Of a stretch of DNA of 64,000 nt, positions 24,716 to 40,914 are shown in pieces. Both the position numbers and the translations under genes were made by a program. Below the pieces are notes generated by a model, which was not told the origin of the DNA, did no database searches, and was given only the letters and a program-made list of their open reading frames with translations. The DNA is from Thermosipho sp. (in: thermotogales) (GTDB taxonomy: Bacteria; Thermotogota; Thermotogae; Thermotogales; Fervidobacteriaceae): NCBI GenBank assembly GCA_017656335.1, contig JACDOA010000002.1, positions 124,001 to 188,000 on the forward strand. The letters are read 5' to 3'. Each line of letters opens with the position of its first letter. The first letter of the stretch is position 1.

Positions 24716-25774
24716 ATGGAAAATAAAGAAAAAGATGTTTCTATTGTTATTGAAGAGTTATTAAAAATAGGAGAAACACAAGACGTCTCAAAAATTAATG
24801 AGGTTATAAAAATTTTAAAAAATGATAATAGACAAATAATTAGAGAAACTGCTGTAAAAGTCTTAAAAACCATTAAATTCAAAGAAACAGCCGAAGAAGT
24901 TTCGAAACTTTTGTTTGAAAAAGATGCCTTTCTTAGAAATTCTGCAGTAATGATCCTTGCAGAATTATGGGACGTTTCAAAACCGATTTTAAAAGAACTT
25001 ATAAAACATAAAAACAAACATATTAGAAAATACGCTTTGGATGCTTTATACCTTTCAAATTCACCTCAATCCACTGATTTAATTTCTCAATGTTTAGATG
25101 ATGAAGAAGTCAACAATGTCATTGCAGCAGTTGAATATATAGGATATTATTACGATACAAGATATAATGATAAAATTGTGAAAATTTTAAAAAAAACTTC
25201 TGATCCATTTCTTATTTGCACTTGTCTTGAAACTCTTGAGAAAATTGGTACTGAAAAACATCACGATGAGGTATTAAACTTTCTCTCAAATCAAAAAGAA
25301 ATTAATGATATAATCCTTCCTTCTCTTTTAAAATTTTTATCTTCAAAAATTAAATTTGATGACATCAATTTCATATTACAAGTTGCTCCATCCAAATTTG
25401 AGATTGCATATAAAGAAATAATTGATACAATAAAAGATTTCATTGAAAAATATCAAAATCAAATAGATGAAAAATTATCAAATAAAATTACTCAACTTTT
25501 ATTGTCATTCTTAGATAATGAAATCCCATCTGAAAACAAATATGAAATTATAATGTTGATTTCGATCATAAATCCCAACATTCTTTTGGACAGGATTAAT
25601 GAATTTCTTGAAACCAATGATGAGCTTATTCAATTAGGTGCTTTGGAATTAATTGGGCAGAAAAAATTAATAAAATACAAAAACAAAATAATTGAAATTT
25701 CCAAAAACTCCTCTTCTGAATTAATTATTGAAATTTGCCAGGATATATTAAATGAGTTAAATGAATTAGACTAA
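24716..25774 (+). CDS. HEAT-repeat protein at the head of the chemosensory operon
   Basis: This 352-residue alpha-solenoid protein is made of repeated helix pairs of the HEAT/PBS-lyase type (for example RQIIRETAVKVLKTIKF, AFLRNSAVMILAELWD, KHIRKYALDALYLS). It has no signal peptide or membrane segment and no catalytic motif. ATG at 24716 follows GAAGGTG. The open frame upstream crosses the permease terminator and is not coding. A perfect TATAAT at 24676 may start the operon, but its -35 is poor. The stop is 16 bases before cheR. HEAT proteins act as scaffolds or adaptors; here it probably helps assemble or localise the signalling complex, which is inference from position. Confidence 0.85.
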   Translation: MENKEKDVSIVIEELLKIGETQDVSKINEVIKILKNDNRQIIRETAVKVLKTIKFKETAEEVSKLLFEKDAFLRNSAVMILAELWDVSKPILKELIKHKNKHIRKYALDALYLSNSPQSTDLISQCLDDEEVNNVIAAVEYIGYYYDTRYNDKIVKILKKTSDPFLICTCLETLEKIGTEKHHDEVLNFLSNQKEINDIILPSLLKFLSSKIKFDDINFILQVAPSKFEIAYKEIIDTIKDFIEKYQNQIDEKLSNKITQLLLSFLDNEIPSENKYEIIMLISIINPNILLDRINEFLETNDELIQLGALELIGQKKLIKYKNKIIEISKNSSSELIIEICQDILNELNELD

Positions 25775-25790
25775 GAAAAGGGTGCAAAAT

Positions 25791-26633
25791 ATGGTTTTCG
25801 GATTTAAAGAATTTAAAGAACTCAGAAATTTCATTTATGAAAAAACAGGAATATTCATACCTGATAATAAAATTTATTTACTTCAGCGAAAAGTTGATAA
25901 AGCGCTCAAAGGTTCTAAATTTAAAAATTTTGAAGAGTATATAAAATACTTGAAATTTTATGATACAAATAAATCTGAATTTACAAAGTTGATAAATGAA
26001 ATAACCATAAATGAAACTCATTTTTTCAGAGACTTTCCACAACTACAGGCTTTTGCTGAATACTGTGTTCCGGAATTATTAGAAAGAACAAAAAAAAGAA
26101 AAATAAAACTGTTGTCTGCCGGTTGTGCTACAGGTGAAGAACCTTATACCTTATCAATAATATGTAACGAAATGTTACCAAGTAACGTAGACTATTCTAT
26201 CATTGCCCTTGATATAGATGACAATGCTCTAAAAAAAGCAAAGGAGGGAAGCTATCTTGAAAGATCAGTCAAGTTTGCTCCCAAAAAATATTTAAACAAA
26301 TACTTTATTAAATATAATGATAGCTATTATGTAAGAGAAGAAATAAAAAACAATGTTTCTTTCTATAAAGTTAATCTTTTTGACTCAAGTCATTTGCTAT
26401 CTTTTGGAAGTGATTTTGATTTTATATTCTGTAGAAATGTATTGATTTATTTTTCTGAAATTTCTAGAATTAAGGTTGTATCAACATTTTACAATATGCT
26501 GGAACCAGGAGGGTATATTTTTCTTGGAAGTTCAGAATCTCTTAGCAGAATCACAACTGCATTTGAATTAAAAAAAATGGGGGAGTTTTTGGTGTATCAA
26601 AAACCTTTATCAAAAGAGGGTCGAAATTTATGA
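25791..26633 (+). CDS. cheR: CheR chemoreceptor methyltransferase
   Basis: CheR methylates glutamates of chemoreceptors using S-adenosylmethionine, for adaptation. The 280-residue protein has the N-terminal helical domain followed by the methyltransferase domain with INETHFFRDFPQL, SAGCATGEEPYTLSI (AdoMet site), ALDIDDNALKKAKEG and FIFCRNVLIYFS. The ATG at 25791 is better placed after AAGGGTG than the GTG at 25782. It overlaps the following receiver gene by 4 bases. The target is presumably the soluble receptor encoded six genes downstream. Confidence 0.93.
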   Translation: MVFGFKEFKELRNFIYEKTGIFIPDNKIYLLQRKVDKALKGSKFKNFEEYIKYLKFYDTNKSEFTKLINEITINETHFFRDFPQLQAFAEYCVPELLERTKKRKIKLLSAGCATGEEPYTLSIICNEMLPSNVDYSIIALDIDDNALKKAKEGSYLERSVKFAPKKYLNKYFIKYNDSYYVREEIKNNVSFYKVNLFDSSHLLSFGSDFDFIFCRNVLIYFSEISRIKVVSTFYNMLEPGGYIFLGSSESLSRITTAFELKKMGEFLVYQKPLSKEGRNL

Positions 26634-26998
26634 AAAAAATCCTTATTGTAGATGATTCAAAAATGGCAAGAAATTATCATGCGTATGTATTAAAGAACGC
26701 AGGATATAGAGTCATCGAAGCAATAGATGGTGCAGATGCTCTTGAAAAATTATTCTCTAATCCTGATATTTCCTGTATTATAACTGATTTAAATATGCCA
26801 AACATGGATGGCCTTACATTTATTAAAAAAGTAAGGGAAAAAGAGGAATTTAAAAAAATTCCTATTATTATTGTAACCACTTTAGATGAAAATTATGACA
26901 AGAGTGAAGGATTTAAAGCAGGCGCAAATTATTATTTAATTAAACCAACCAAACCTTCAGCTCTTATATCCACTATCAAATTACTATTAAAAGATTAA
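26630..26998 (+). CDS. cheY: CheY-like single-domain response regulator
   Basis: This 122-residue stand-alone receiver domain has the acidic pocket VDDSKMARN, phospho-acceptor Asp53 in IITDLNMPNMDG, the conserved threonine in VTTLDEN and the lysine in LIKPTKPSAL. It starts in an ATGA overlap with cheR and is followed by cheA, the expected phosphodonor. Whether it binds a flagellar motor or another target cannot be told; no flagellar gene is in the window. Confidence 0.93.
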   Translation: MKKILIVDDSKMARNYHAYVLKNAGYRVIEAIDGADALEKLFSNPDISCIITDLNMPNMDGLTFIKKVREKEEFKKIPIIIVTTLDENYDKSEGFKAGANYYLIKPTKPSALISTIKLLLKD

Positions 26999-27010
26999 GA
27001 GGTGGGAGTT

Positions 27011-29422
27011 TTGAAATTTGCAGATGATGATATTATATTAATTAAAAATATTCTGAAAGAAATAATTATGTATATTCAAAATCTGGAAAACACAATAAAC
27101 CAAATTAAAAAAAATCCAAAAAACAATCACTTAATTGTAAAAATAATAGAGACTTTACGCTCAATCATTGATTTATCTCATTTTATAAATTTAGATTTTC
27201 TTGTCGAAATTATAAGAAAACAAAATAAACATTTGAAAAATTTACAAACTATTGACAACAAAGATATCCACATTTTAGAACAATTGTTGCAGATCATTAA
27301 AAACACCTTTGATACAATCTCAAATTATGCAAATAAAAGCGACATGTCAGAAATAGATATTCCCCTAGAAGACATTAAAGATTCAAAAGAATACAAGGAA
27401 ATTATTAACTATCTTGAAAGCAGGGCTGCTTCAAAGGAAAAAAATAAAACTTCTTCTTTTTCATCATTAAACGAACTACTAGAAGAATATGCAGTTGAAT
27501 TGGAAGACAATATAACAAAATTGGAAAACGCATTATTAGATTATGAACAAAATCACAATAGTGAACTTTTAAAAGATATAATGAGATATTTTCATAGTAT
27601 AAAAGGTGGTTCGCGATTAATACTTTCTTTTCCCGAAAATTCAGATAATATTTCTTTGTTATACATAGAAAAAATTTCTCATAAATTTGAAGATTTGGTT
27701 CAAAAATCAATTAAAGAAAATATTGACTTACCTGTAAATTTATTATTTCAAGCTGTTGATTATTTAAAAACATTGAAAAATAGTTTTTTGCAAAATATTC
27801 CTTTTGACAAAGATAAAATTGATAAATTTTTACAAAATATTAATACATCTAAAATTCAGCATCCTGTGGAGAAAATTGAAATAAATGAAATCAGTAGGCC
27901 TACAGAAACCATATCAGAAACTTTAATAAATTTGATCTCTCAATTTCTTGAATTTCTTAACGTGTTAAAAGAAAATCCCGAATTAAAAGAAAATGCTTTA
28001 TATTCTATTCTTCCCATTAAAAATGGTCTGGAATTGTTAAAAAATAAAGATTTAATAGAGATTTTAAACAGTGCTGAATCATCAATTAAACAAAATGATT
28101 TTGATCAAGCATATCAAACAATCAGCAAGTTATATAATATATTAAAACAAACTGATAAAACATCAATAGAAAAAACAGACATTGAACTAAAAGAGGCAGA
28201 AAAAAACAAAAAAGAGAGAGTTTTAGAAACTAAAGTAGATACAAAAACAAAATCTCCAATTTTAAAAGTTAATAGAAAAAAAATTGACAAATTAATAAAT
28301 CTAATTGAAGAATTAACAACTGTAAAGAATTTTTTATCCTATATTTTAAAAATGAATGTTATTCAGGATGAAAAAACAAAAAATAATGTTACAAGATTAA
28401 ATAAAATTATTTCCGAACTTTACAATGTAGCAATTTCCATAAGAATGGTTCCAGTTGGGGATTTATTTAGCATGTTTAGAAGAACTATTAGAGATTTATC
28501 AATAAAGCTAAGTAAAAAGGTCAATTTGATTATAAAAGGAAGTGAAGTAGAAATAGACAAAAATATTATTGAAATAATTGAAGATCCATTAACTCATCTT
28601 GTAAGAAATGCAATCGATCATGGAATTGAACCTCCGCAGGAAAGATTAAAACTTGGAAAAAATGAGGAAGGAGAAATTGTACTCAACGCATATTATTCTG
28701 GAAATTTTGTAAATATTGAAGTAATAGACGATGGAAAGGGAATAAATCCTGAAATGGTTAGAGCAAAAGCCCTTGAAAAAAATTTAATTTCTCCTGAAGA
28801 AGTTATGAATATTTCTGATGAACAAATAATTAATTATATATTTGAACCAGGTTTCTCAACCTCAAACAATATCAATGAAATTTCAGGAAGAGGTTTTGGT
28901 TTAGATATTGTTAAAAATACTATTGAAAAAATTGGAGGGAAAATTTATATTGAATCAAAGGTTGGAAAAGGCACAAAAATAACATTACAATTGCCTTTAA
29001 CTTTATTTATTGTAAGAGGTTTGCTTGTAGAAATAGAAAATTTCAAATTTATAATACCAATGGAATTTGTACATGAAATATTTAAATTAAATTCAAGCAA
29101 AATATATTCCCATAAAGAAATATATTTCACTAAAATAAGAAATAAAATTGTTCCTGTGATATTCGGTGATACTATAATTGAAAATTTTGAATTTAATAAA
29201 AAAGAGTATCTTGTTAACAATGATTTGATTAATTTAGTTTTAATTGATAATGTTGAATATGGAACAGTTGCTCTTGTAGTTAATAAAATAATAGAAGAAA
29301 ATGAATATTTGATTAAAAATATTCCTGAAATTAGTACTAATAATAACCTCTTATTTGGCGCAACAATAATAGAAGATGGAACAGTTGTTCCTATATTAAA
29401 CCTTATTGAGCTGGTGATATGA
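27011..29422 (+). CDS. cheA: CheA histidine kinase
   Basis: This is the kinase core of the chemosensory system, about 803 residues. The N-terminal 140 residues form a helical bundle with the look of an HPt domain but no phospho-histidine (LRSIIDLSHF where the motif would be). A true HPt domain follows, with the phosphorylatable histidine in YFHSIKGGSRL (about residue 195). Then come a long linker, the dimerisation helices (INRKKIDKLINLIEELT), the ATP-binding domain (VRNAIDHGIE, DDGKGINPE, GRGFGLDIVK) and a C-terminal CheW-like domain. The TTG at 27011, 6 bases after AGGTG, is a better start than the GTG at 27002. It is coupled to parA by overlapping codons. Confidence 0.92.
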   Translation: MKFADDDIILIKNILKEIIMYIQNLENTINQIKKNPKNNHLIVKIIETLRSIIDLSHFINLDFLVEIIRKQNKHLKNLQTIDNKDIHILEQLLQIIKNTFDTISNYANKSDMSEIDIPLEDIKDSKEYKEIINYLESRAASKEKNKTSSFSSLNELLEEYAVELEDNITKLENALLDYEQNHNSELLKDIMRYFHSIKGGSRLILSFPENSDNISLLYIEKISHKFEDLVQKSIKENIDLPVNLLFQAVDYLKTLKNSFLQNIPFDKDKIDKFLQNINTSKIQHPVEKIEINEISRPTETISETLINLISQFLEFLNVLKENPELKENALYSILPIKNGLELLKNKDLIEILNSAESSIKQNDFDQAYQTISKLYNILKQTDKTSIEKTDIELKEAEKNKKERVLETKVDTKTKSPILKVNRKKIDKLINLIEELTTVKNFLSYILKMNVIQDEKTKNNVTRLNKIISELYNVAISIRMVPVGDLFSMFRRTIRDLSIKLSKKVNLIIKGSEVEIDKNIIEIIEDPLTHLVRNAIDHGIEPPQERLKLGKNEEGEIVLNAYYSGNFVNIEVIDDGKGINPEMVRAKALEKNLISPEEVMNISDEQIINYIFEPGFSTSNNINEISGRGFGLDIVKNTIEKIGGKIYIESKVGKGTKITLQLPLTLFIVRGLLVEIENFKFIIPMEFVHEIFKLNSSKIYSHKEIYFTKIRNKIVPVIFGDTIIENFEFNKKEYLVNNDLINLVLIDNVEYGTVALVVNKIIEENEYLIKNIPEISTNNNLLFGATIIEDGTVVPILNLIELVI

Positions 29423-30204
29423 TGGCAAAAACCATTGTATTCTCTAACCGAAAAGGAGGGACTGGAAAAACTACATTATCTTTTAATATAGCAAGTTATT
29501 TGGCTAATAAGAAATATAGAACGTTGCTTATTGATCTTGATTCTCAAGCTCATAGTACTATCCATGCTGGTTTGAACGTTTTTAAATTAAAATATACCAT
29601 TTATGAAGTTCTAATAGAATTTATTAAAAACAAAAAAGTTAATAAAGATGTTATTATAAAAACAAGTAAACTTGATTTAATCCCATCAAATGAAAATATA
29701 GCTGCTTTGGAAATTGAACTTTCAAATTTTAAAAATCAAAATTCAATTTTAAAAGATTTTCTGATTGAATTTGAAAAGGATTATGATTTTATTATTATTG
29801 ATACTCCTCCTTCTTTGGGGCTAATCACAATAAATGCTTTGGTAGCATCTGATTACCTTATTATTCCAGTAAAATTAGATTTTTTCTCCTTAGTTGGAAT
29901 TGCAAATATGATGAACATTTATTATAAAATCAATTCAATGTATGCGCCAAATCTGAAATTACTTGGAATAATTCCTGTAAATCTGAATTCTAGAGCAAAA
30001 ATATCAAAGGAAGTTTTCAAAGAAATTGAAAATACTTTTGGTAAAGATAAATTATTTCCATTTTTAAAACAGGACATTAAGTTTGTTGAAGCGTCAAGCC
30101 ATGGTTTGCCAATTTTTAAATATTCCCCAAAATCTAGTGGTAGTGAAGCTATTAGAAAAATCTCAAAAGAACTGCTTAGGAGGATTAGTAACCTTGAAAA
30201 ATAA
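29419..30204 (+). CDS. parA: ParA/Soj-family ATPase in the chemosensory operon
   Basis: This 261-residue deviant-Walker ATPase of the ParA/MinD superfamily has KGGTGKTT (about 12-19) with the signature lysine, LLIDLDSQAHST and IIIDTPPSLGLITINAL. Such proteins form ATP-dependent dimers on the nucleoid and move or space a partner-bound cargo. It starts inside the cheA stop (ATGATG), so it is translationally tied to the kinase. Relatives inside chemotaxis operons (PpfA, ParC types) position chemoreceptor clusters. The next gene has a ParB-like N-terminal motif and would be the natural stimulator of this ATPase. A chromosome or plasmid partition role is less likely here. Confidence 0.92.
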   Translation: MMAKTIVFSNRKGGTGKTTLSFNIASYLANKKYRTLLIDLDSQAHSTIHAGLNVFKLKYTIYEVLIEFIKNKKVNKDVIIKTSKLDLIPSNENIAALEIELSNFKNQNSILKDFLIEFEKDYDFIIIDTPPSLGLITINALVASDYLIIPVKLDFFSLVGIANMMNIYYKINSMYAPNLKLLGIIPVNLNSRAKISKEVFKEIENTFGKDKLFPFLKQDIKFVEASSHGLPIFKYSPKSSGSEAIRKISKELLRRISNLEK

Positions 30205-30508
30205 CACTAAATTACTTGGAAGAGGACTTGATAACCTATTTGATAATACCATTGAAGATCAGTTTTTTGATAAAGCTTTAAAAGATGATGAAAATGGAAA
30301 TTATTTATTTGCTTTTCACTATTATATGAAAGTAGTTGAATTAAATGGAAAATTGAAAGCAAAAGCCTTAAACAATGCAGCGGTAATTTTAGCCGAAAAT
30401 GGTTTTTCATCAAAAGCTATTGAGTTATTGAAGGAAGCACTCAAAATAGACAGTAATAATTCAGAAATAAAATACAATTTAAATTCTCTTTTAAGTGAGG
30501 CAGAATAA
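30194..30508 (+). CDS. Small TPR protein with ParB-like N-terminal motif
   Basis: This is a protein of about 104 residues. TTG at 30194 lies 10 bases after AGGAGG and overlaps the end of parA by 11 bases; no ATG fits. Its first 20 residues contain LLGRGLDNLF, which closely matches the N-terminal ParA-stimulating motif of ParB/Spo0J (usually LGRGLDALF with basic residues before it). Instead of the ParB nuclease-like and helix-turn-helix domains, the rest is two to three TPR-like helix pairs (FAFHYYMKVVEL, ALNNAAVILAENG, AIELLKEALKI). The likely job, by inference, is to link ParA to the signalling cluster. The motif is short, so coincidence is possible. Confidence 0.8.
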   Translation: MKNNTKLLGRGLDNLFDNTIEDQFFDKALKDDENGNYLFAFHYYMKVVELNGKLKAKALNNAAVILAENGFSSKAIELLKEALKIDSNNSEIKYNLNSLLSEAE

Positions 30509-30510
30509 AA

Positions 30511-31995
30511 ATGATTGTAGGAATTGATTTTGGAACCGTTAATTCTTCTGTTTCATTCATTGATGATGATCTAAAACCCCAAATAATTGTAAACGAAAGA
30601 GGAGTAAGATTAACTCCTTCTGTTGTTTATTTTAAAAATTCTGAAGAAGTTATAGTAGGTGAGATAGCTAAATCACAAAGATTAGTTAAACCAGAGCAAA
30701 CAATTTTATTAGTAAAAAGAAAGATTGGAGAAGATTATAAATACAATATTTTTGAATGCGAATATTCTCCTCCAGAAATTGCTTCGTTTATTTTTAGAAA
30801 ATTAAAGCAATATGCTTCAGATTATTTAAATAAAGAAATTAATCAGGCTGTAATTACTGTTCCAGCATACTTTGATGACAATCAAAGACAAGGGGTACTA
30901 CTAGCCGCTAAATTAGCAGGAATGGAAGTTGTAAAATTACTTAATGAACCAACTGCAGCCGCATTAGCCTACAATCTTGACCCTACAATTGATCAAAATG
31001 TATTGGTTTTAGATTTTGGAGGAGGTACATTTGACTTAACTTTGTTAAACTCCCATAACGGTATTTACAAAGTTTTATCTACGAAAGGGAATACGAATCT
31101 TGGAGGTATTGATTTTGACAAAGTTATTGTTGATTGGATTTTAGACACTATAAAAAAGAAAGATGGAATTGATTTATCAAACGATACAGTAGCATTACAA
31201 CAAATATGGAATGCCGCAGAAAAAGCTAAAATAGATCTTTCAAGTGTTGAAGAAACCAATATTGTAATTCCATACATTGCAATAAATGAAAATGGACCAT
31301 ATCATATAAACATTACATTAACAAGAGGGAGATTTGAAAATCTTTCTATTAATTTACTATTTAAAGCAAAAAAGCTGATTTTGGAAGTATTAAAAGATGC
31401 TAATCTTACTCCTGATCAAATAGACAAAGTAATTCTTGCAGGAGGAACTTCAAGAATCCCTGCCTTTAAAAAAACAATTAAAAATATTTTCGAAAAATCT
31501 GAAATTTTGGGAACCATAAACCCTGATGAAGTTGTAGCTCTAGGTGCTGCTGTTCAAGCAGGTATAATAGAGGGAAAATTACAAAATATTGAATTAAAAG
31601 ATATTGTTTCTCATACTCTGGGAATTTTGAATGATGATGGACAATTTGTTCCAATAATAGAAAAAGGAACATTTTATCCAACTTCATCAACCAAAATGTT
31701 TACAAATACCAGAGATAATCAGAATTCTGTGATAATAAAAGTCTTACAGGAACATAATGATAATTTAATTGAACTTGGAAATTTAGAATATGTTTCAGAA
31801 TTCTACTGGAGAAAAGAAGAAGCAAATATCTCCGTGACTTTTTATATTGATATAAACGGTGTTTTAAAAGTAATTGCTGAGGATCTTGACCATGGAAACA
31901 AAAAAGAATTAAACCTTAAAAATCCTTTTTTAGAATTAAGAAACATAAATATTGAAGAAAAAAAGAAATTCCTTGAAAAAATTAATGTTTTATAA
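30511..31995 (+). CDS. Lidless Hsp70/DnaK-like ATPase in the chemosensory operon
   Basis: This 494-residue Hsp70-family protein has the full ATPase domain: phosphate-1 motif GIDFGTVNSSV, the DnaK-like NEPTAAALAYN, phosphate-2 DFGGGTFDL, and adenosine motif LAGGTSRIPA. It continues with a shortened beta domain starting near VSHTLGILND. The alpha-helical lid and disordered tail of housekeeping DnaK (about 600-640 residues) are missing. It begins 2 bases after the TPR gene, in the middle of the signalling operon, and no DnaJ or GrpE gene is near. A role in assembling, anchoring or sensing through the array is inference; a general chaperone role is less likely. Confidence 0.87.
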   Translation: MIVGIDFGTVNSSVSFIDDDLKPQIIVNERGVRLTPSVVYFKNSEEVIVGEIAKSQRLVKPEQTILLVKRKIGEDYKYNIFECEYSPPEIASFIFRKLKQYASDYLNKEINQAVITVPAYFDDNQRQGVLLAAKLAGMEVVKLLNEPTAAALAYNLDPTIDQNVLVLDFGGGTFDLTLLNSHNGIYKVLSTKGNTNLGGIDFDKVIVDWILDTIKKKDGIDLSNDTVALQQIWNAAEKAKIDLSSVEETNIVIPYIAINENGPYHINITLTRGRFENLSINLLFKAKKLILEVLKDANLTPDQIDKVILAGGTSRIPAFKKTIKNIFEKSEILGTINPDEVVALGAAVQAGIIEGKLQNIELKDIVSHTLGILNDDGQFVPIIEKGTFYPTSSTKMFTNTRDNQNSVIIKVLQEHNDNLIELGNLEYVSEFYWRKEEANISVTFYIDINGVLKVIAEDLDHGNKKELNLKNPFLELRNINIEEKKKFLEKINVL

Positions 31996-32018: not shown

Positions 32019-33974
32019 ATGGAAAGAAAAAAATTAGAAGTTCCAGAAGAACTTAAGAAAAAAAGAACCGGAATTAAAGAAAAAGTAGGTTTAGAAGATT
32101 TAAACAAAAAGAAAGAAGAGGTAAGAAGAAAAGCACAAGAAAGAATAAATCAAAGAAATATTGCTAAAAGACAAGCTTTATCAGAAAGAATTGCTTCTGC
32201 TGCACAAGAACTGTTGGTCGGCATCGAAGAAGCATCTTCAGCTGTAGAAGAACTTTCTGGAGCAATTGAAGAGTTCTCTTCAAGTGCTGAACAAACTTCA
32301 AGTGCAGCACAAGAATCCAAGGCAGCTATTGAACAAATTTCAAAAAGTATAAATTCAATAAAAGAAAATATTAAAGAATTGGTTGAATCCTCCAAAATTT
32401 CGCAACAAAGGATTTTATTTATGATTGATAATCTCAACAATTTAATTTCTATTGTGAATGAATCTGCCGAAAAAAACAAGGAGGCTGCTAATTTATTATC
32501 CCAACTTGAAAAAGAATCAAAGAAAATTATTGAAATAGTTGAAGTTGTATCCAATATAGCAGATCAAACTAATTTACTCGCATTAAACGCTGCGATTGAA
32601 GCTGCCAAAGCTGGAGAATATGGAGCAGGATTTTCTGTAGTTGCAGATGAAATACGAAGACTTGCCGAAACTTCGCAAAATTCAGCGGGAGAAATTGCAA
32701 AATTTGTAGAACAAATTGAAAAAAGTCTTTCTTCTGTTTCAGAAATGATAAATAAAATAGTTTCTGATTCAAACTCTCAGGTTAAATTGGGGATTGATAT
32801 TTCAAATGAATTAAGTAAAATATCCGATAATTTTGATCAAATTGTTCAACATATGCTAGATACTCAATTAGATTTTGATGAAATTGTTGAATTAACTAAT
32901 AAATTGTTAGATCAATCTCTTACAGTTGAAAGTGGTGCATTGCAAATTAGTTCTGCAGCAGAACAATCTGCAACTGCCTTAAACCAACAGGTAAAAGGCT
33001 TTTCAGAAGTTAGGACTACTGCTCAAGCTTTAGTTGAACTTGCTGAAGAATTAAAAACAACTTCTGACATTTCTAAAATTGTTGATTTTTTAGCCTCTTC
33101 ATCCGATGAGTTATCATTTAACATTCAAGAATTGCTTAGTGCATCCGAAGAAATTAATTCTGGCCTTGAGCAACTTAGAAAAGGTACTCAACTTCTTTTA
33201 GAAGCGTCTAAAAATAGTTCCAAAATAATTGAAACTCTTTCTAAAAAAGCTTTCTCACTGAACAATATCATAGAAAATGATATTAAATTTTTGCAAGAAA
33301 CGGTAAATATGCTTAACAATAACAAAGATAATATTTCAAAATTAATAAATAATATCAAAACGATTTCCGAAGACTATCAAAACTCTTCTAAAAACATGTT
33401 AGAACTTTCAGAAAAAACTAGGAAAATTGAAAAGTTCATTGATCTCATTGAAAAGGTTACAATTCAAACCAATATGCTTGCAATAAGCGGTTTAATAGAA
33501 GCTGCTAGAGCTGGGGAATATGGAAAGGGCTTTGAAGTAGTTTCTACAGATATAAGGAATTTATCAGAAGACACCTCTACAAATGCTGAAAATATCAAAG
33601 AATTAATTAACAACATTTTATACTTCATCAATAATTTAACGCTTGAAATATCCAATTCTTCAAGGGAATCTATCTCCGAAGTTTCAAAAGCTCAGGAATC
33701 TTTTAAAATTGTTGAAGAATTAAATGAAAAAATCTCTCTATTTAACAATTTCTTTGAAAATATTTCTAAAGAATTTGAACAAATTTCAGTTGCAATTGAA
33801 CAAAACAGTAAATCTGTAGAACAAATCTCGTCTGCGGTGGAACAATCTAGCTCGGCAATTGAAGAATCCACAAAAGCTTCAGAGCAACAAGTCATAGCTT
33901 TAAACCAACTTTCAAAGGCCATAGAAGAAATAATTGAGATTAATGAAGAATTAAGACAAAGCTTGGAGGTGTGA
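32019..33974 (+). CDS. Soluble chemoreceptor with two signalling hairpins
   Basis: This 651-residue methyl-accepting-type receptor has no membrane segment and no recognisable ligand domain. A basic N-terminal stretch (residues 1-55, rich in Lys and Arg) is followed by long coiled coils. Two kinase-control hairpin tips are present: [20 protein letters not shown] (about 181-200) and [20 protein letters not shown] (about 481-500), exactly 300 residues apart. The Ser/Glu/Gln-rich flanks ([36 protein letters not shown]) resemble methylation-helix packing. ATG at 32019 is 8 bases after AAGGGG. Dual-hairpin soluble receptors are known in some proteobacterial systems; here it is the only receptor in the operon. 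Confidence 0.9.
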
Positions 33975-33977
33975 TTA

Positions 33978-35465
33978 ATGAACACCTCTCAACTTTTTGT
34001 TTCTTTTACCATATCAAATCAAAGATTTGCTGTGCCATTAAAATATACAAAAGAAATTGTTGATTCATTATCTATAACAAAAATCCCCATGACTTCGAGT
34101 TTTGTTGAAGGAATAGCAAACTATAGAGGCGAAATAATTCCTGTTTTGAATTTGTATGTTTTAATAAAAAAGAAAAAAATAAACACCAAACATAAATTTT
34201 TAATCCTGGAAATAAACAATAAAATTATTGGATTAACAATCTCCTCAAGCGAAGAAATTCTCGGTATTTCTCCAGAAGAAATTGAACAAAAATCAGAAAA
34301 TGAGTTAATATCAGGAATATTTCATAAAAATGAAAATGTATATTTCATTCTAAATACTGAAAAATTAATTGAAAAATTATCATCAAAAAATCTTAAGAAA
34401 AAATCAACCAAACCATTTGTAAAAAAGGAGCAAATAGAACAAATAACTGAAAAAAAAGATTATTTTAAAATTTTGACTTTTAAATTAAATAACAATTTAT
34501 ATGCATTTCAACTAAAAGACGTCGAAGAAATTATTAGCTACAGAGAAATTAATTTTGCTCCAAATCTACCTTCATATGTGGAAGGAATAATTAAAAATAG
34601 AAATTATTTGACTCCTGTCATTAATACAAAATCATTATTGGAATTTAATAACACAGAATACCTGACAAATTCAAAAATAATTTTCTTGAAATTAAATAAT
34701 TCTCTAGTAGGAACATTGGTAGACTCTGTTGAAAATATATTAAATGTTGACAAACAAGATATATTAAATACACCATTTTCTACAGAAAAAAATTCTGAAC
34801 TTAAGGGAATAATTGAAATTAATGGAAAATTAATCATGTTGATCGACATTCTTTCTTACTTAAAAGAAGATCTATTATTTTTAGAAAAAGAATTTAAAAA
34901 AGAACAAACTCTTAAAAAACCAAAAAAGCAACTTCAATATGTTATAATTAAGCTAAATAATGATATTTTTGCAATTTCTATAGAAAATATTCTTGAAATT
35001 TTCTCATCAAATAATATTACCAAAATCCCAAATTCAAAATCTTCATTTGAAGGACTTTTGAACTATCGAGGAAATATCATTCCAGTAGTAAATTTAAGAA
35101 AGAAACTTACAAATACTTCTTCCAAACAAAAAAACTACAAATTTCTAATATGTAAAATTAATGATCAACAAATTGCTTTGCTTGTAGATGAAGTAATAGA
35201 TACAAGATCATATTACGAAGAACAAATAAGAGATATTCCTGAATTAGGAAGAAAATCAAACAAAATAAAGAAAGCAATAAAAGATTCTACAAATACTATC
35301 TTGATCCTTGAAATCGACAAATTACTAACTTCAAAAGAAAAAATTAATATAGAGGAACTTTCGAAAGAGAAGGATATATCTTCTTTATCACAAGAAAGTA
35401 TAGATCCAAAAAAAACAAAAGAAAAAAAGAAAAAATCGAACATAAAATTAAAACGTTTAAAATGA
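33978..35465 (+). CDS. Triple-CheW coupling protein
   Basis: This 495-residue protein is built of three CheW-like domains in tandem, at about 5-140, 162-298 and 319-455. Each shows the CheW pattern of a start such as LFVSFTISNQRFAVPL, a VEGIANYRGEIIPVLNL-type turn and a closing beta region. A lysine-rich tail ends the protein (KKTKEKKKKS). CheW joins receptors to CheA; three fused copies could bridge several receptor or kinase units, perhaps matching the two-hairpin receptor. The second copy is the most divergent (GIIKNRNYLTPVIN). No separate cheW gene is present in the operon. Confidence 0.9.
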   Translation: MNTSQLFVSFTISNQRFAVPLKYTKEIVDSLSITKIPMTSSFVEGIANYRGEIIPVLNLYVLIKKKKINTKHKFLILEINNKIIGLTISSSEEILGISPEEIEQKSENELISGIFHKNENVYFILNTEKLIEKLSSKNLKKKSTKPFVKKEQIEQITEKKDYFKILTFKLNNNLYAFQLKDVEEIISYREINFAPNLPSYVEGIIKNRNYLTPVINTKSLLEFNNTEYLTNSKIIFLKLNNSLVGTLVDSVENILNVDKQDILNTPFSTEKNSELKGIIEINGKLIMLIDILSYLKEDLLFLEKEFKKEQTLKKPKKQLQYVIIKLNNDIFAISIENILEIFSSNNITKIPNSKSSFEGLLNYRGNIIPVVNLRKKLTNTSSKQKNYKFLICKINDQQIALLVDEVIDTRSYYEEQIRDIPELGRKSNKIKKAIKDSTNTILILEIDKLLTSKEKINIEELSKEKDISSLSQESIDPKKTKEKKKKSNIKLKRLK

Positions 35466-35475
35466 AGGTGATTTT

Positions 35476-36546
35476 ATGAAAATTAAAGTATTAGTTGTAG
35501 ATGATTCTGCATTAACAAGGAAAATTTTGGAAAAAATAATCTCGTCCGATCCCGATTTAGAAGTAATTGATTTTGCAGAAAATGGGCTCGAAGCAATTGA
35601 AAAAGCAAGAAAACTCAAACCTGATGTGATTACGCTTGATGTCTTAATGCCAAAATTAGATGGGCTTAAAACATTAGAAACCTTAGTAAAAGAAAAAATT
35701 TGTCCCGTAATTATTCTGTCAGTAATAACTCAAGAGGGTGCTTTAGAAACTATTAAAGCATTGCAAATAGGCGCATTCGATGTTATACCTAAACCAAAAG
35801 GTGGTGGACCTTTTACTGTTGAAAGTATTTCATCAATTCTTATAAAAAAGATAAAGGAAGCATATCTGTATTCTAAAGATAAAAATGTTTTAAATAAACT
35901 TTCAAAAGAAATTGATATCGAGGAAAAACAGAAATTAAGTCTTGAACCATCATCAAGAGATAAAATAGACTTTTATGGCGTAGTTATAGGAATTTCAACT
36001 GGTGGACCCAAAACCATATATGATGTTCTTCCAAAATTACCAGCAGATCTAAATGCCTCTATATTTCTTATACAACACATGCCTTCTGGATTCACCAAAC
36101 AATACGCTGAAAGATTGGATAAATATTCTGAATTGAAAGTAGTTGAAGCAGAAGATGGAATGGAAGTTAAGCCTGGATATGTTTATGTAGGTAAAGCTGG
36201 ATATCACTTAAAAATAAGACAAGGTGGAAAAAACACACTTAAAATATGGCTTTCTAAATTTCCAGAACACTTATTTAAACCATCAGTCGATATTACTATG
36301 GAAAATGTACTTCAATTTTTTAAAGAAAAAACAATTGGTGTTTTAATGACTGGCATGGGAGACGATGGAGCAGAAGGTATGGTTAAAATAAAAAACACAG
36401 GTGGACTTACAATAGCTGAATCTGGAGAAACTGCTATCGTGTTTGGAATGCCCGCTGAAGCAATAAAAAGAGGTGGAGCAAATGTAATTTTACCTTCTTA
36501 TAAAATTGCAGACAAAATTATAGAAATAGTAAATAATAACAAGTGA
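35476..36546 (+). CDS. cheB: CheB receptor methylesterase/deamidase
   Basis: This 356-residue adaptation enzyme has an N-terminal receiver (VVDDSALTRK, phospho-acceptor Asp55 in ITLDVLMPKLDG) joined to the methylesterase domain. The catalytic triad is visible as Ser174 in GISTGGP, His201 in IQHMPSGF and Asp296 in TGMGDDGAEG. It pairs with the CheR gene at the operon start to reset receptor methylation. The ATG follows GAAGGTG and lies 10 bases after the triple-CheW gene. Confidence 0.95.
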   Translation: MKIKVLVVDDSALTRKILEKIISSDPDLEVIDFAENGLEAIEKARKLKPDVITLDVLMPKLDGLKTLETLVKEKICPVIILSVITQEGALETIKALQIGAFDVIPKPKGGGPFTVESISSILIKKIKEAYLYSKDKNVLNKLSKEIDIEEKQKLSLEPSSRDKIDFYGVVIGISTGGPKTIYDVLPKLPADLNASIFLIQHMPSGFTKQYAERLDKYSELKVVEAEDGMEVKPGYVYVGKAGYHLKIRQGGKNTLKIWLSKFPEHLFKPSVDITMENVLQFFKEKTIGVLMTGMGDDGAEGMVKIKNTGGLTIAESGETAIVFGMPAEAIKRGGANVILPSYKIADKIIEIVNNNK

Positions 36547-36558
36547 GGAGTGATTATA

Positions 36559-37608
36559 TTGGAAAAAAAGCTTTCATTTAAAATCTTAATAATAGATGAT
36601 GATAATTTATTTTTAAATTATTCAAAAAACATTTTACAATCAAACGGTTACGATGTAGAAATTGCTACCAACGGTAAGGAAGCTTTGCAGATTTTTTCAA
36701 AAAATCCGGGTTTATATAGAATCATGCTCGTTGATTTATTAATGCCAGTAATGAATGGGATTGAATTTATAAAAGAAATTAGAAAAATTTCAAGAGATTT
36801 TTACCCTTATATCATCATCGTTACTATTAAAAACGAAACTGAAATTCTTTCACAGTCTCTTGATGTAGGAGGAGACGATTTTATAGTTAAACCTATTAAT
36901 GAAAAAATTCTTGTTAAACATATTGAAAGCGCTCTTAGAAAACTAACGTTTATTAATTTAGATGCCTTACTGGATATTCCTTTAAAACTTCTCGATTCAA
37001 AAGACAAATACACTACTTTACACAGTGAAAATGTAAAAATATATACTTCTATTTTAACTAAATTATGTTTTGAAGAAAATTTAATTGAAAACAAACAATT
37101 TGATACCTTTTTACTTGAAATACAGGAAGCAGCAAGGTTACATGATGTTGGCAAAATTGTCATTCCTGATTTTATATGGATGAAACCTGGAACTTACACC
37201 GAAGAAGAAAGACGAATTATGCAATTGCACACCACAAAAGGAGCTGAAGCAATAGATGCCGCATTAAAAACACATCCTGAAAATAGTATATTAAAAACTT
37301 GCTATAATGTCGTTAAATATCATCACGAAAGATGGGATGGAAAGGGATATCCTGAAGGACTTAAAGGAAAAGAGATCCCGATAGAAGCAAGAATTGTTGC
37401 TGTTGCAGATGTCTTCGATGCTTTAACTACTAGAAGAATTTATCGTTCTGAATATCCAGCTCATGAAGCTATAGAGATAATGATTAATGAAGAAGATGGT
37501 CATTTTGATCCTGATATATTTGGACTATTTTTGAAGTATAAAAATCTGTTCATTGATATTGCAAAAACAAAGCTCAAAAAACAACTTGAAGAAATTAAAA
37601 AATTATAA
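36559..37608 (+). CDS. Response regulator with HD-GYP phosphodiesterase domain
   Basis: This 349-residue output protein has an N-terminal receiver (ILIIDDDNLF, acceptor in MLVDLLMPVMNG) and a C-terminal HD-GYP domain expected to degrade cyclic di-GMP. Catalytic motifs are HDVGK, then YHHERWDGKGYPEGL, IVAVADVFDALTT and EDGHFDPDI, all intact. TTG at 36559 is 8 bases after GAGGAG; GTG at 36550 is too close to it. As last gene of the operon, followed by a terminator, it makes c-di-GMP turnover a likely output of the CheA pathway in addition to CheY. No GGDEF cyclase gene is in the window. Confidence 0.93.
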   Translation: MEKKLSFKILIIDDDNLFLNYSKNILQSNGYDVEIATNGKEALQIFSKNPGLYRIMLVDLLMPVMNGIEFIKEIRKISRDFYPYIIIVTIKNETEILSQSLDVGGDDFIVKPINEKILVKHIESALRKLTFINLDALLDIPLKLLDSKDKYTTLHSENVKIYTSILTKLCFEENLIENKQFDTFLLEIQEAARLHDVGKIVIPDFIWMKPGTYTEEERRIMQLHTTKGAEAIDAALKTHPENSILKTCYNVVKYHHERWDGKGYPEGLKGKEIPIEARIVAVADVFDALTTRRIYRSEYPAHEAIEIMINEEDGHFDPDIFGLFLKYKNLFIDIAKTKLKKQLEEIKKL

Positions 37609-37641: not shown

Positions 37642-40600
37642 TTATTTTTTCAAAAGTTTATCTAAATAACTCATTACTTCATCTTTTGTATTAAGGGGAG
37701 TACCATCTTCTGTTAAAACTTGACTCCAATCTTTTAGTTCACTTTCCCACATATTATCAGTAAGTTCATTATATCTATCTTTCAAATTTGATGCAATATA
37801 TTTCATATCATTTAAAATAAGTTCGTAATGCACTATGAATCTTTGATAACTTTCAAAAATATTCGCCGCAGTTGGAGGTGTGATAATTCCTTCTATTGTA
37901 TCCTTAACCTTTAGCAAGGTTTGAATACTTAAACCCATGTTTTTCAGTTGTGAAATAAAGTTATTAAGTTTTTCAACTGAAACTGATACCCAAGTATTAT
38001 TTTTTCTTTGATCATACCATTTAGAAAAATCAGTTTGTGTTAATTTTTTCATAAATGATGCTTCTAATCCCATGTAATTATATGTTTCAAATGTTTTTTC
38101 AATTTCATTTATTGTCTCATCAAATGAATTTAAAATCGCATCTATTGCAGGTTTAGGTATATTTGAGTTTTCCAAAAGTGAGCTAAGTTTCTCTTTATAT
38201 GTATTTTTTATATTTACAACCGTACTTTTTAAGTTATCGGCATATTTTGGCATTTGTTCTTTTGCATCTATATATGAATCTTTATATAATTTTGCTAGTT
38301 TTTCTAAAGTATATAGTGTTTCTTGATTTTGACCAGCCTTATAGTATTCAATTGCACTGGCGTGTAAAAAGTCTAAAACCCCATTTGGAACTCCCCATAC
38401 ACCTTTTAGAGTCATATACTTAACCGCTTTTACCTCCATGTTAGCTAACCAGTACAATAACTCTCTAACTGGAATAACAGATGGTGGTTGTAGTTTTAAC
38501 GTCATTCCTGCATAAAACCTGTAAATATCTTGCCCTGCTGTTTCTTTGGAAACATCGGGATTCTTCCAATCTGGGAATCTATTCCAGCCACCAGGCATGT
38601 TATAAATCGTAGTTTTAACATATTTAGAATAACTATCAAAATATTTTACAACCAATTCTTTTACATAACTATAGTATTCACTATCTTGTGGTAAAACAGA
38701 TAGTAGTTGTTTTGTCATGTTGTGCAATGAATGATATCTCATTGCAATGGCTTTATATGTGTTTCTTTCATTAAATGAAAGCAATGATGTTTCATAAATA
38801 CCAATTGAATCAATGAGAGCTTGCATTGTTGCAAAATCGAATTTACTAAGTATTTCTGGATGTTTTTCAATATACGGAATTAATTTTTCAAGCCATTTAT
38901 ATTTGTACTTATCGTATATAATTTTTTGAAATTCGTCAAAATTTTGAGAAAAGATTTCTTTATAATGTGTTTGAATATTATTTCTTAAATTATTCAATCT
39001 GTAATTTTGAACAGCTAAAGTTCCCAGGTAAAAATAAGATTTTCCATATGTATGATTTAAACTAACACTTTTTATAAGTTGTGTTTTTGCCTTTTCATAA
39101 TATTGCGCAGCTAATTGCGGTAATTGTGATTTTTGTGATTTTAATTGTGAAATTTGAGAAAGAATTTGATTTTTTATTTTATTGACCTCTGCAAGTCTTT
39201 GATTTTCTATGTCTAATTCGTTATAAGGTAAACCTTTTTGCATATGCTCTTTTTGTTTTTGTTCTTTCCAAGTCTGTGGATTTAAATAAGCAAATTGACC
39301 ACTGTAGTTTTCAAGGTTTTTTAATTCGTTTTCAAGTTGCTTAATATAATTATCAGCCTTTGGCAATTCTTCTAGAATTTTCACATATGTCATATATGAA
39401 CCATTACCGTTTTTAAAGTAAACTTCTGATATAAAATGATTCCATCTAAGATAAGTTGAAGTATAAACAGATAAAAGAACAAGTACGGAAACTATTAAAA
39501 CTAAACCACCTTTTACTTCTTTTAATTCTTTCTTTGTAAAATAAGGTCCAATTGCAACACTAGCAAAGAAAGTTGCAGCTAGTGCGTTGGGCAGAAGATG
39601 CCCTGGAAAACTAAACACACTTTGTATAGCAAAACCAACTACTGCAATAGATAATGATAAAAACAGGAGCAAATCATCTCTATCATCAATTTTCTTTGGG
39701 ATAGTAAAAAAGTAATATGCTAGAGTTAGTAAAAGTAGAATGATCAGTATAAATCCAACAATACCTGTTTCTCCCAATACTTGGAAATAATCGTTATGAG
39801 CTCTCTTAAAATTATTCCATCCATAGTATAATTCTGGATGCTTATCAAGATATTCACCCATTTTTGTTATAGATAACATTTGATAGGTGCCAATTCCAGT
39901 TCCAAATAATTTGTGATCTTCCCATAATTCCAGAGATGTAAACCAGGACAGGAATCTTTCATCTTTACTTGAAACAGAAGCCATTGCAGCAAATCTGTCA
40001 GTCATACTTACTTTGCCATTTCCTGTGAGGGGATTTGGAGTATTGTATATCACAATAATTAATAATGAAAGTACTAACACTACAACAAAAAGATATTGGG
40101 TTAAGCGTTTTAATTTCTTTGCAAGTTTTTCATCTGTAGTTTTAATTTGCTCAAATGCTTTGTCTTTTTTCTTTCGGCTCCAAATAAAATAAAAAACCGC
40201 ATATAATGCTGTCATTACAATAATTGCTAAATATTCGGATCTAGTTTGAGCAACAACAACAGCTACCAAGCCAACGATAAAAGAAATCGAAGAAAATAAT
40301 TTTAACGAAAATACTTTAAGAAATGTAGGTTTTTCAATTCCTAAATCGAAACTTAAGATGAAATACAGTGCAATAGGTAGAAGCATATCAATATAGTTTG
40401 CAGTAAATATAACATTTCCAACTGTGGATTTTATAGCCGCTCTAGTAAAAGGTTCTCCGACATTTCCCAAAAACAAATCAATTCCTAAATAAAAGTTTAA
40501 AAGGGCATCAATGGAAATAACTAACGAAGTGATTAAAAAAGTAAACAACAAAGTATTAATTTTTTTCTTATCTTTATAAACGGTGCTGAAATAAATTGCT

Positions 40601-40914
40601 AAAAGCACATTAAATAAAACATACAAAGCAATATCAAAAGATTGTCTAAAATAAAAGGGGTTATCCCTTAGAACATTAAAACTTGAAATTATCGAAACAA
40701 TAGCAAATAAAAACCATAAAATATGCGCACTGGATATATAGAACCGTATTTTCTTTTCTTTTAACCATTTAAAAAGTAAAACTGTAAAAAGAATTGAAAT
40801 AGCCAAAGTAAGTATGGCATACTTTGGGACGCTAAACTCATATGTTAACTTTGGGTGAGCAAACAATGCAACTAGAACTACCGTAATATGCATTAATATA
40901 TCACCAAACAACAA
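37642..40914 (-). CDS. O-antigen-ligase-like membrane protein with large soluble C-terminal region
   Basis: This 1090-residue protein has about a dozen membrane helices over its first 490 residues, including the Wzy/WaaL-type core with FKRAHNDYFQVLGETGIVG. A soluble C-terminal region of about 600 residues follows, largely helical, with coiled-coil segments (for example around KNQILSQISQLKSQ) and possible TPR-like stretches. The core fits polymerases or ligases of surface polysaccharide. The long C-terminal extension is unusual for the family and would probably face the outside. The start is TTG at 40914 with AGGAGG 8 bases upstream. It is a single gene between a shared terminator and its own promoter; no other polysaccharide genes are adjacent. 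Confidence 0.8.
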   Translation of the reverse strand: MLFGDILMHITVVLVALFAHPKLTYEFSVPKYAILTLAISILFTVLLFKWLKEKKIRFYISSAHILWFLFAIVSIISSFNVLRDNPFYFRQSFDIALYVLFNVLLAIYFSTVYKDKKKINTLLFTFLITSLVISIDALLNFYLGIDLFLGNVGEPFTRAAIKSTVGNVIFTANYIDMLLPIALYFILSFDLGIEKPTFLKVFSLKLFSSISFIVGLVAVVVAQTRSEYLAIIVMTALYAVFYFIWSRKKKDKAFEQIKTTDEKLAKKLKRLTQYLFVVVLVLSLLIIVIYNTPNPLTGNGKVSMTDRFAAMASVSSKDERFLSWFTSLELWEDHKLFGTGIGTYQMLSITKMGEYLDKHPELYYGWNNFKRAHNDYFQVLGETGIVGFILIILLLLTLAYYFFTIPKKIDDRDDLLLFLSLSIAVVGFAIQSVFSFPGHLLPNALAATFFASVAIGPYFTKKELKEVKGGLVLIVSVLVLLSVYTSTYLRWNHFISEVYFKNGNGSYMTYVKILEELPKADNYIKQLENELKNLENYSGQFAYLNPQTWKEQKQKEHMQKGLPYNELDIENQRLAEVNKIKNQILSQISQLKSQKSQLPQLAAQYYEKAKTQLIKSVSLNHTYGKSYFYLGTLAVQNYRLNNLRNNIQTHYKEIFSQNFDEFQKIIYDKYKYKWLEKLIPYIEKHPEILSKFDFATMQALIDSIGIYETSLLSFNERNTYKAIAMRYHSLHNMTKQLLSVLPQDSEYYSYVKELVVKYFDSYSKYVKTTIYNMPGGWNRFPDWKNPDVSKETAGQDIYRFYAGMTLKLQPPSVIPVRELLYWLANMEVKAVKYMTLKGVWGVPNGVLDFLHASAIEYYKAGQNQETLYTLEKLAKLYKDSYIDAKEQMPKYADNLKSTVVNIKNTYKEKLSSLLENSNIPKPAIDAILNSFDETINEIEKTFETYNYMGLEASFMKKLTQTDFSKWYDQRKNNTWVSVSVEKLNNFISQLKNMGLSIQTLLKVKDTIEGIITPPTAANIFESYQRFIVHYELILNDMKYIASNLKDRYNELTDNMWESELKDWSQVLTEDGTPLNTKDEVMSYLDKLLKK

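Follow-up and report, generated by a model that had tools for sequence, protein, structure and literature searches.

ParA/MinD ATPases are common in chemosensory operons and were found without a ParB in the operon in 77 of 206 species; positioning by a ParA encoded in a che operon is an already known principle (PMC2829493). The partners of these ATPases are diverse and often unidentified (PMC10241942). In the PpfA-TlpT system of Rhodobacter sphaeroides, a ParA-like ATPase places a cytoplasmic chemoreceptor cluster over the nucleoid through a ParB-like, activating N-terminus. Vibrio ParC-ParP likewise comprises a ParA-like ATPase from a che operon and a partner bridging to the array; ParP, whose AIF domain integrates into the array, works on membrane arrays at the pole. 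In PomX-PomZ and McdB-McdA, activators unrelated to ParB act on a ParA/MinD ATPase and a protein cargo is moved. With regard to chromosomal systems, the ParB motif of Myxococcus xanthus, L11-G-R13-G-L15-x-x-L18-I19, inserts into a pocket of ParA in which L150 and L152 touch the motif hydrophobics, while Y81, E82, D110 and E117 surround R13; ParB needs four hydrophobic positions, namely L11, L15, L18 and I19 (PMC12462528). Further, a change of R238 in M. xanthus ParA abolishes DNA binding, and ParB is most active when two motifs lie next to each other.

The window analyzed here, that is, the whole stretch of 64,000 nucleotides, contains a chemosensory operon in which the gene for a ParA-like deviant Walker A ATPase (29422..30204, forward strand, start possibly at 29419; AAA_31, E=7e-52) is followed by a gene for a predicted TPR adaptor with a ParB-type ParA-binding motif (30194..30508, forward strand; 104 amino acids, TTG start). 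The TPR protein is probably the ParB stand-in of a protein-cargo ParA system, coupling nucleoid-bound ParA to a cytoplasmic array. Judged by its sequence, the locus resembles PpfA-TlpT: a ParA-like gene lies in a che operon together with a soluble receptor, and there is no parB. Unlike in that system, where the activating N-terminus belongs to the chemoreceptor (TlpT being compared by description), the N-terminus in question is on a separate small TPR protein and its motif is close to the chromosomal ParB motif, whereas the receptor N-termini lack LGxGL.

A preliminary description of this locus had matched the residues LLGRGLDNLF near the N-terminus to the ParA-activating motif of ParB and had called for an alignment of homologues. 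The motif LGRGLDNLF occupies residues 8–16 of the TPR protein (30215..30241, forward strand), and the alignment upheld its assignment as ParB-type at the level of sequence. In a set of only nine orthologues, some of them closely related, the core LG[RKM]GL and both hydrophobic positions trailing it were kept in all nine, and the positions matching M. xanthus ParB L11, L15, L18 and I19 were always hydrophobic, while the flanks before and after the motif varied. The central R/K was kept in eight of the nine and is M in G047. By a composition estimate, the expected frequency of LG[RKM]GL close to an N-terminus is about 9e-5 per protein, and that of the core with its two trailing hydrophobics is about 6e-6 for a gene next to parA. 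A check of 227 ORFs from 14 stretches found LG[RKM]GL, at any position, in the TPR orthologues alone. A 16-column profile of the motif, run against the PDB, recovered no ParB chains and gave a single chance match, VP17; motif similarity is therefore no proof of homology to ParB.

A true start downstream of the motif, envisaged earlier as a way in which the match could fail, was ruled against. The start was placed at 30194, upstream of the motif, because the Shine-Dalgarno sequence AGGAGG is found at 30178..30183 (forward strand, inside the 3' end of parA) and because orthologues begin just ahead of the motif, with their first residue 3–9 residues before it. GGAGG or a similar sequence was also present upstream of most TPR orthologues. 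The overlap of parA with the start of the TPR gene, also part of the preliminary description, was confirmed and measures 11 bases, parA ending at 30204. A longer ORF from a TTG at 30083, which is the mechanical longest ORF, was rejected, since the orthologue starts and the ribosome site fit 30194.

The best PDB match of the window ParA was 8ray, the M. xanthus ParA, whose numbering fits the ParA21-274-D60A construct of PMC12462528. Counting residues from the start at 29422, the Soj-type signatures KGG[TSC]GKTT, D38/D40 (motif 2) and D127 (Walker B) are conserved. Conservation of the pocket served as an additional test of the ParB-substitute reading and was favorable: M. xanthus Y81, E82, E117, L150 and L152 align with Y61, E62, E99, L132 and L134, which are kept in 8, 9, 8, 9 and 8 of the nine ParA orthologues, respectively. 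By the same alignment, these orthologues do not preserve the pocket residues matching M. xanthus D110 and L187, and the set of five is absent from MinD, from Mrp and from a separate lineage of ParAs in the phylum. Two further ParAs of the phylum, G055b and G052, keep part of the pocket and have no TPR-type neighbor. G047, in which the central R/K of the motif is replaced, is the sole orthologue whose ParA carries E99A and L134Y; this co-change of motif and pocket is one event and suggestive only.

The same data bear on the possibility that the motif is coincidental, in which case the TPR protein would work elsewhere in the pathway and ParA would have another partner, for instance the basic N-terminus of the receptor. 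The motif is indeed short, and the receptor N-terminus is conserved among orthologues and of a kind seen in PomX and FrzCD, as basic N-termini can activate ParA/MinD ATPases (PomX) or bind DNA (FrzCD). However, a coincidence is highly improbable in view of a motif retained at every N-terminus amid variable flanks, strict adjacency to parA, and a conserved pocket with a matching change in G047.

The suggestion that TPR-like helices replace the DNA-binding parts of ParB was borne out as well. Pfam TPR_2 scored above the cut-off at residues 56–89, and AlphaFold2, run with the nine-sequence alignment, gave five helices over residues 12–103 with a pLDDT of approximately 98 through residues 21–100; the nearest PDB folds were designed and natural TPR proteins. 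No ParB/Srx CTPase domain (PF02195) was detected in the Pfam search, nor was there a helix-turn-helix DNA-binding domain, which would be the part that binds parS, or a dimerization domain in the 104 residues, which consist of TPR helices only. Lacking the CTPase and DNA-binding parts, both of which were looked for, the TPR protein is not a ParB, and its resemblance to one is functional and local. Residues 1–8 are disordered in the model (pLDDT < 50) and the helices run from residue 12, so that the motif is predicted to start in a flexible tail and to enter the first helix. The pair shares with M. xanthus ParABS the family, pocket and DNA-binding residues of its ParA, as well as the activating motif at the N-terminus of the partner. 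It differs in that this partner lacks the ParB/Srx CTPase and DNA-binding domains and in residing in a chemosensory operon, not in a segregation locus. PomX works via a short N-terminal peptide, as is proposed for the TPR protein, but motifs, folds and cargos of PomX-PomZ and McdB-McdA are all different.

The M. xanthus DNA-binding residues R209 and R238 correspond to R191 and K220 here, and both positions are basic in all nine ParAs. This argues against ParA anchoring the array to the pole or membrane in the fashion of Vibrio ParC/ParP instead of moving it over the nucleoid. ParC does offer a precedent, being a ParA-like ATPase of a che operon that acts through an array-integrated partner, and bridging to the array is also what we propose for the TPR protein. 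Nevertheless, ParP integrates via its AIF domain, whereas Pfam revealed no CheW-like or other array domain, AIF included, in the TPR protein, and we consider anchoring very unlikely.

The operon as a whole, encoded on the forward strand, has the order HEAT, CheR, CheY, CheA, ParA, TPR, Hsp70, receptor, CheW3, CheB and REC-HD-GYP. It begins with a HEAT-repeat protein (24716..25774; orthologues at related loci), a CheR methyltransferase (25782..26633; domain match), a single-domain response regulator of the CheY type (26630..26998; a sequence reading, with orthologues between CheR and CheA) and a CheA with one intact Hpt (27002..29422; domain match), whose end touches the parA start. In the first Hpt-like region of this CheA, which reads RSIID, the phosphoacceptor motif HSLKG seen in G004 and G001 is lost, while the second, FHSIKG, is intact. 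The TPR gene is followed by an Hsp70-like protein without the helical lid (30511..31995; HSP70 positions 1–500 of 599), a soluble, DosM-like receptor with two MCP signalling domains and a basic N-terminus (32019..33974), in which no membrane segment was found, and three concatenated CheW domains with a basic C-terminal tail (33978..35465; three CheW stretches). A CheB methylesterase (35476..36546; domain match) and a response regulator with an HD-GYP domain (36550..37608; domain match) complete the run. Hsp70 orthologues share the C-terminal end [VI]-[LI] as their last two residues, which is not EEVD-like. The CheW3 tail reads KLKR[LS][KR] in most orthologues and could possibly contact the TPR protein or DNA.

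Orthologous loci contain much the same gene set with some rearrangement. In G004, a ParA-TPR-Hsp70 block stands ahead of HEAT-CheR-CheY-CheA-receptor-CheW3, and in L023 the place of the HD-GYP gene is taken by a CheY-like and another small gene. After the cluster, the opposite strand encodes a 1090-residue membrane protein (37642-40914) that is O-antigen-ligase-like with a long helical C-terminal part, as judged by sequence reading only. No tRNA gene was found within the 64,000 nucleotides.

The cargo had been left unnamed in the preliminary description, which also drew no comparison with PpfA-TlpT; the gene content of the operon points to a cytoplasmic chemosensory array of the F9 type. DosM scaffolds the F9 arrays of Vibrio cholerae, which are cytoplasmic sandwiches (PMC7534058, PMC9321776). 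As in F9/DosM, the operon encodes a receptor that has two signalling domains but lacks a membrane segment, a concatenated triple CheW, CheA and CheB/CheR. On domain architecture, compared by description, the receptor and CheW3 match this array type and bear signatures of the F9 class. Unlike F9/DosM, the operon also contains ParA, the TPR adaptor and Hsp70, and ParA goes unmentioned in the F9 passages considered from these papers (PMC7534058, PMC9321776). Only 3 of 72 species are reported to have F9 as their sole class (PMC9321776). The genome to which the window belongs (G000) showed no FliG and no CheA or receptor beyond those in the operon. Two CheAs were counted in each of six other operon-bearing genomes tested, and FliG was present in seven of the eight others. 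PilB/PilT-type ATPases were found in G000, which makes a type IV pilus output possible.

Large soluble arrays are the kind of cargo that ParA systems move. The earlier proposal of a ParB substitute linking ParA to a protein cargo gains support from a motif retained in nine of nine orthologues, a start upstream of it and a preserved pocket, all of which are sequence evidence. Motif, pocket, gene order, co-occurrence and the absence of ParB are direct readings, together with the TPR fold; binding and activation of ParA by the TPR protein, docking of its TPR domain on the array and positioning of the array are put forward by analogy. ATP-bound ParA dimers would be held non-specifically on the nucleoid, where the activating tail of the TPR protein would contact and release them in the manner of PpfA-TlpT, with positioning over the nucleoid and ParB-like N-terminal activation as common elements. 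The TPR domain, in turn, would grip a component of the array encoded in the same operon (the double-signalling-domain receptor, the triple CheW or CheA). An array held in this way would follow ParA gradients across the nucleoid, become spaced and then be shared out at division. Candidate contacts for the TPR domain are the basic N-terminus of the receptor, the basic C-terminal tail of CheW3 and the C-terminus of Hsp70.

TPR domains often bind Hsp70 C-termini. The TPR protein might then be mainly a co-chaperone of the lidless Hsp70, with the motif letting ParA control the place or the timing of chaperone action on the array. The adjoining, mostly co-conserved TPR and Hsp70 genes and the common ending of the Hsp70s would fit such a role, but this ending differs from EEVD and, in G083, a one-contig genome with a completeness rating of 100%, the operon retains ParA and TPR but has lost the Hsp70 gene. 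Hsp70 is hence not the sole TPR partner in G083, and a mainly co-chaperone function seems unlikely. The ParB stand-in also has a more elaborate version, which we offer tentatively and with some doubt: a detached ParA adaptor module for F9-type arrays, in which the TPR protein with its ParB motif docks on the array and the lidless Hsp70 remodels or splits it, here serving an array in a genome without flagella, another CheA or another receptor.

With regard to distribution, the TPR protein was found in 9 of 103 genomes of the phylum and a close parA in the same nine. In these genomes, the TPR gene always lies directly behind parA, with che genes around it wherever the contig extends. A contig scan with the TPR protein yielded one Bacteroidota relative, whose match was confined to residues 40–96 and covered the TPR part but not the motif. 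No TPR homologue was found on plasmids, where the best ParA matches reached 39% identity. PF02195 matches were obtained in 7 of the 103 genomes; these proteins had no LGxGL near the N-terminus, and no parA was observed next to any of them. A segregation-type ParB was not found in the phylum. There was no PF02195 match in G000 and, with no ParB domain found, a chromosomal ParABS was rejected for this genome. Its other ParA/MinD-type ATPases are MinD, an Mrp and ArsA-like matches; a SurE-like gene that resembles SurE of Thermotoga maritima adjoins mrp, which makes an assignment to Thermotogota likely. ParAs also occur in six further genomes, all members of a single family of the phylum; the four that were aligned form the separate lineage and lie beside other small genes, outside any che operon seen. 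In L060, L061, L062 and L063, ParA adjoins a small protein whose N-terminus has a KLD[MI][DE]SL-like stretch; this may be a further orphan ParA paired with an activator of its own.

A search of open-access papers found no TPR protein serving as a detached adaptor and carrying a motif of the ParB type, and a separate adaptor of this kind appears to be undescribed. The TPR protein provides a concrete candidate partner for ParA that carries the motif of a known binding pocket, which makes ParA activation testable with a 20-residue peptide. If the proposed role is true, the ParB activation peptide can reside on a separate adaptor for protein cargo, and the locus would give a hint at how F9 arrays are placed and inherited.
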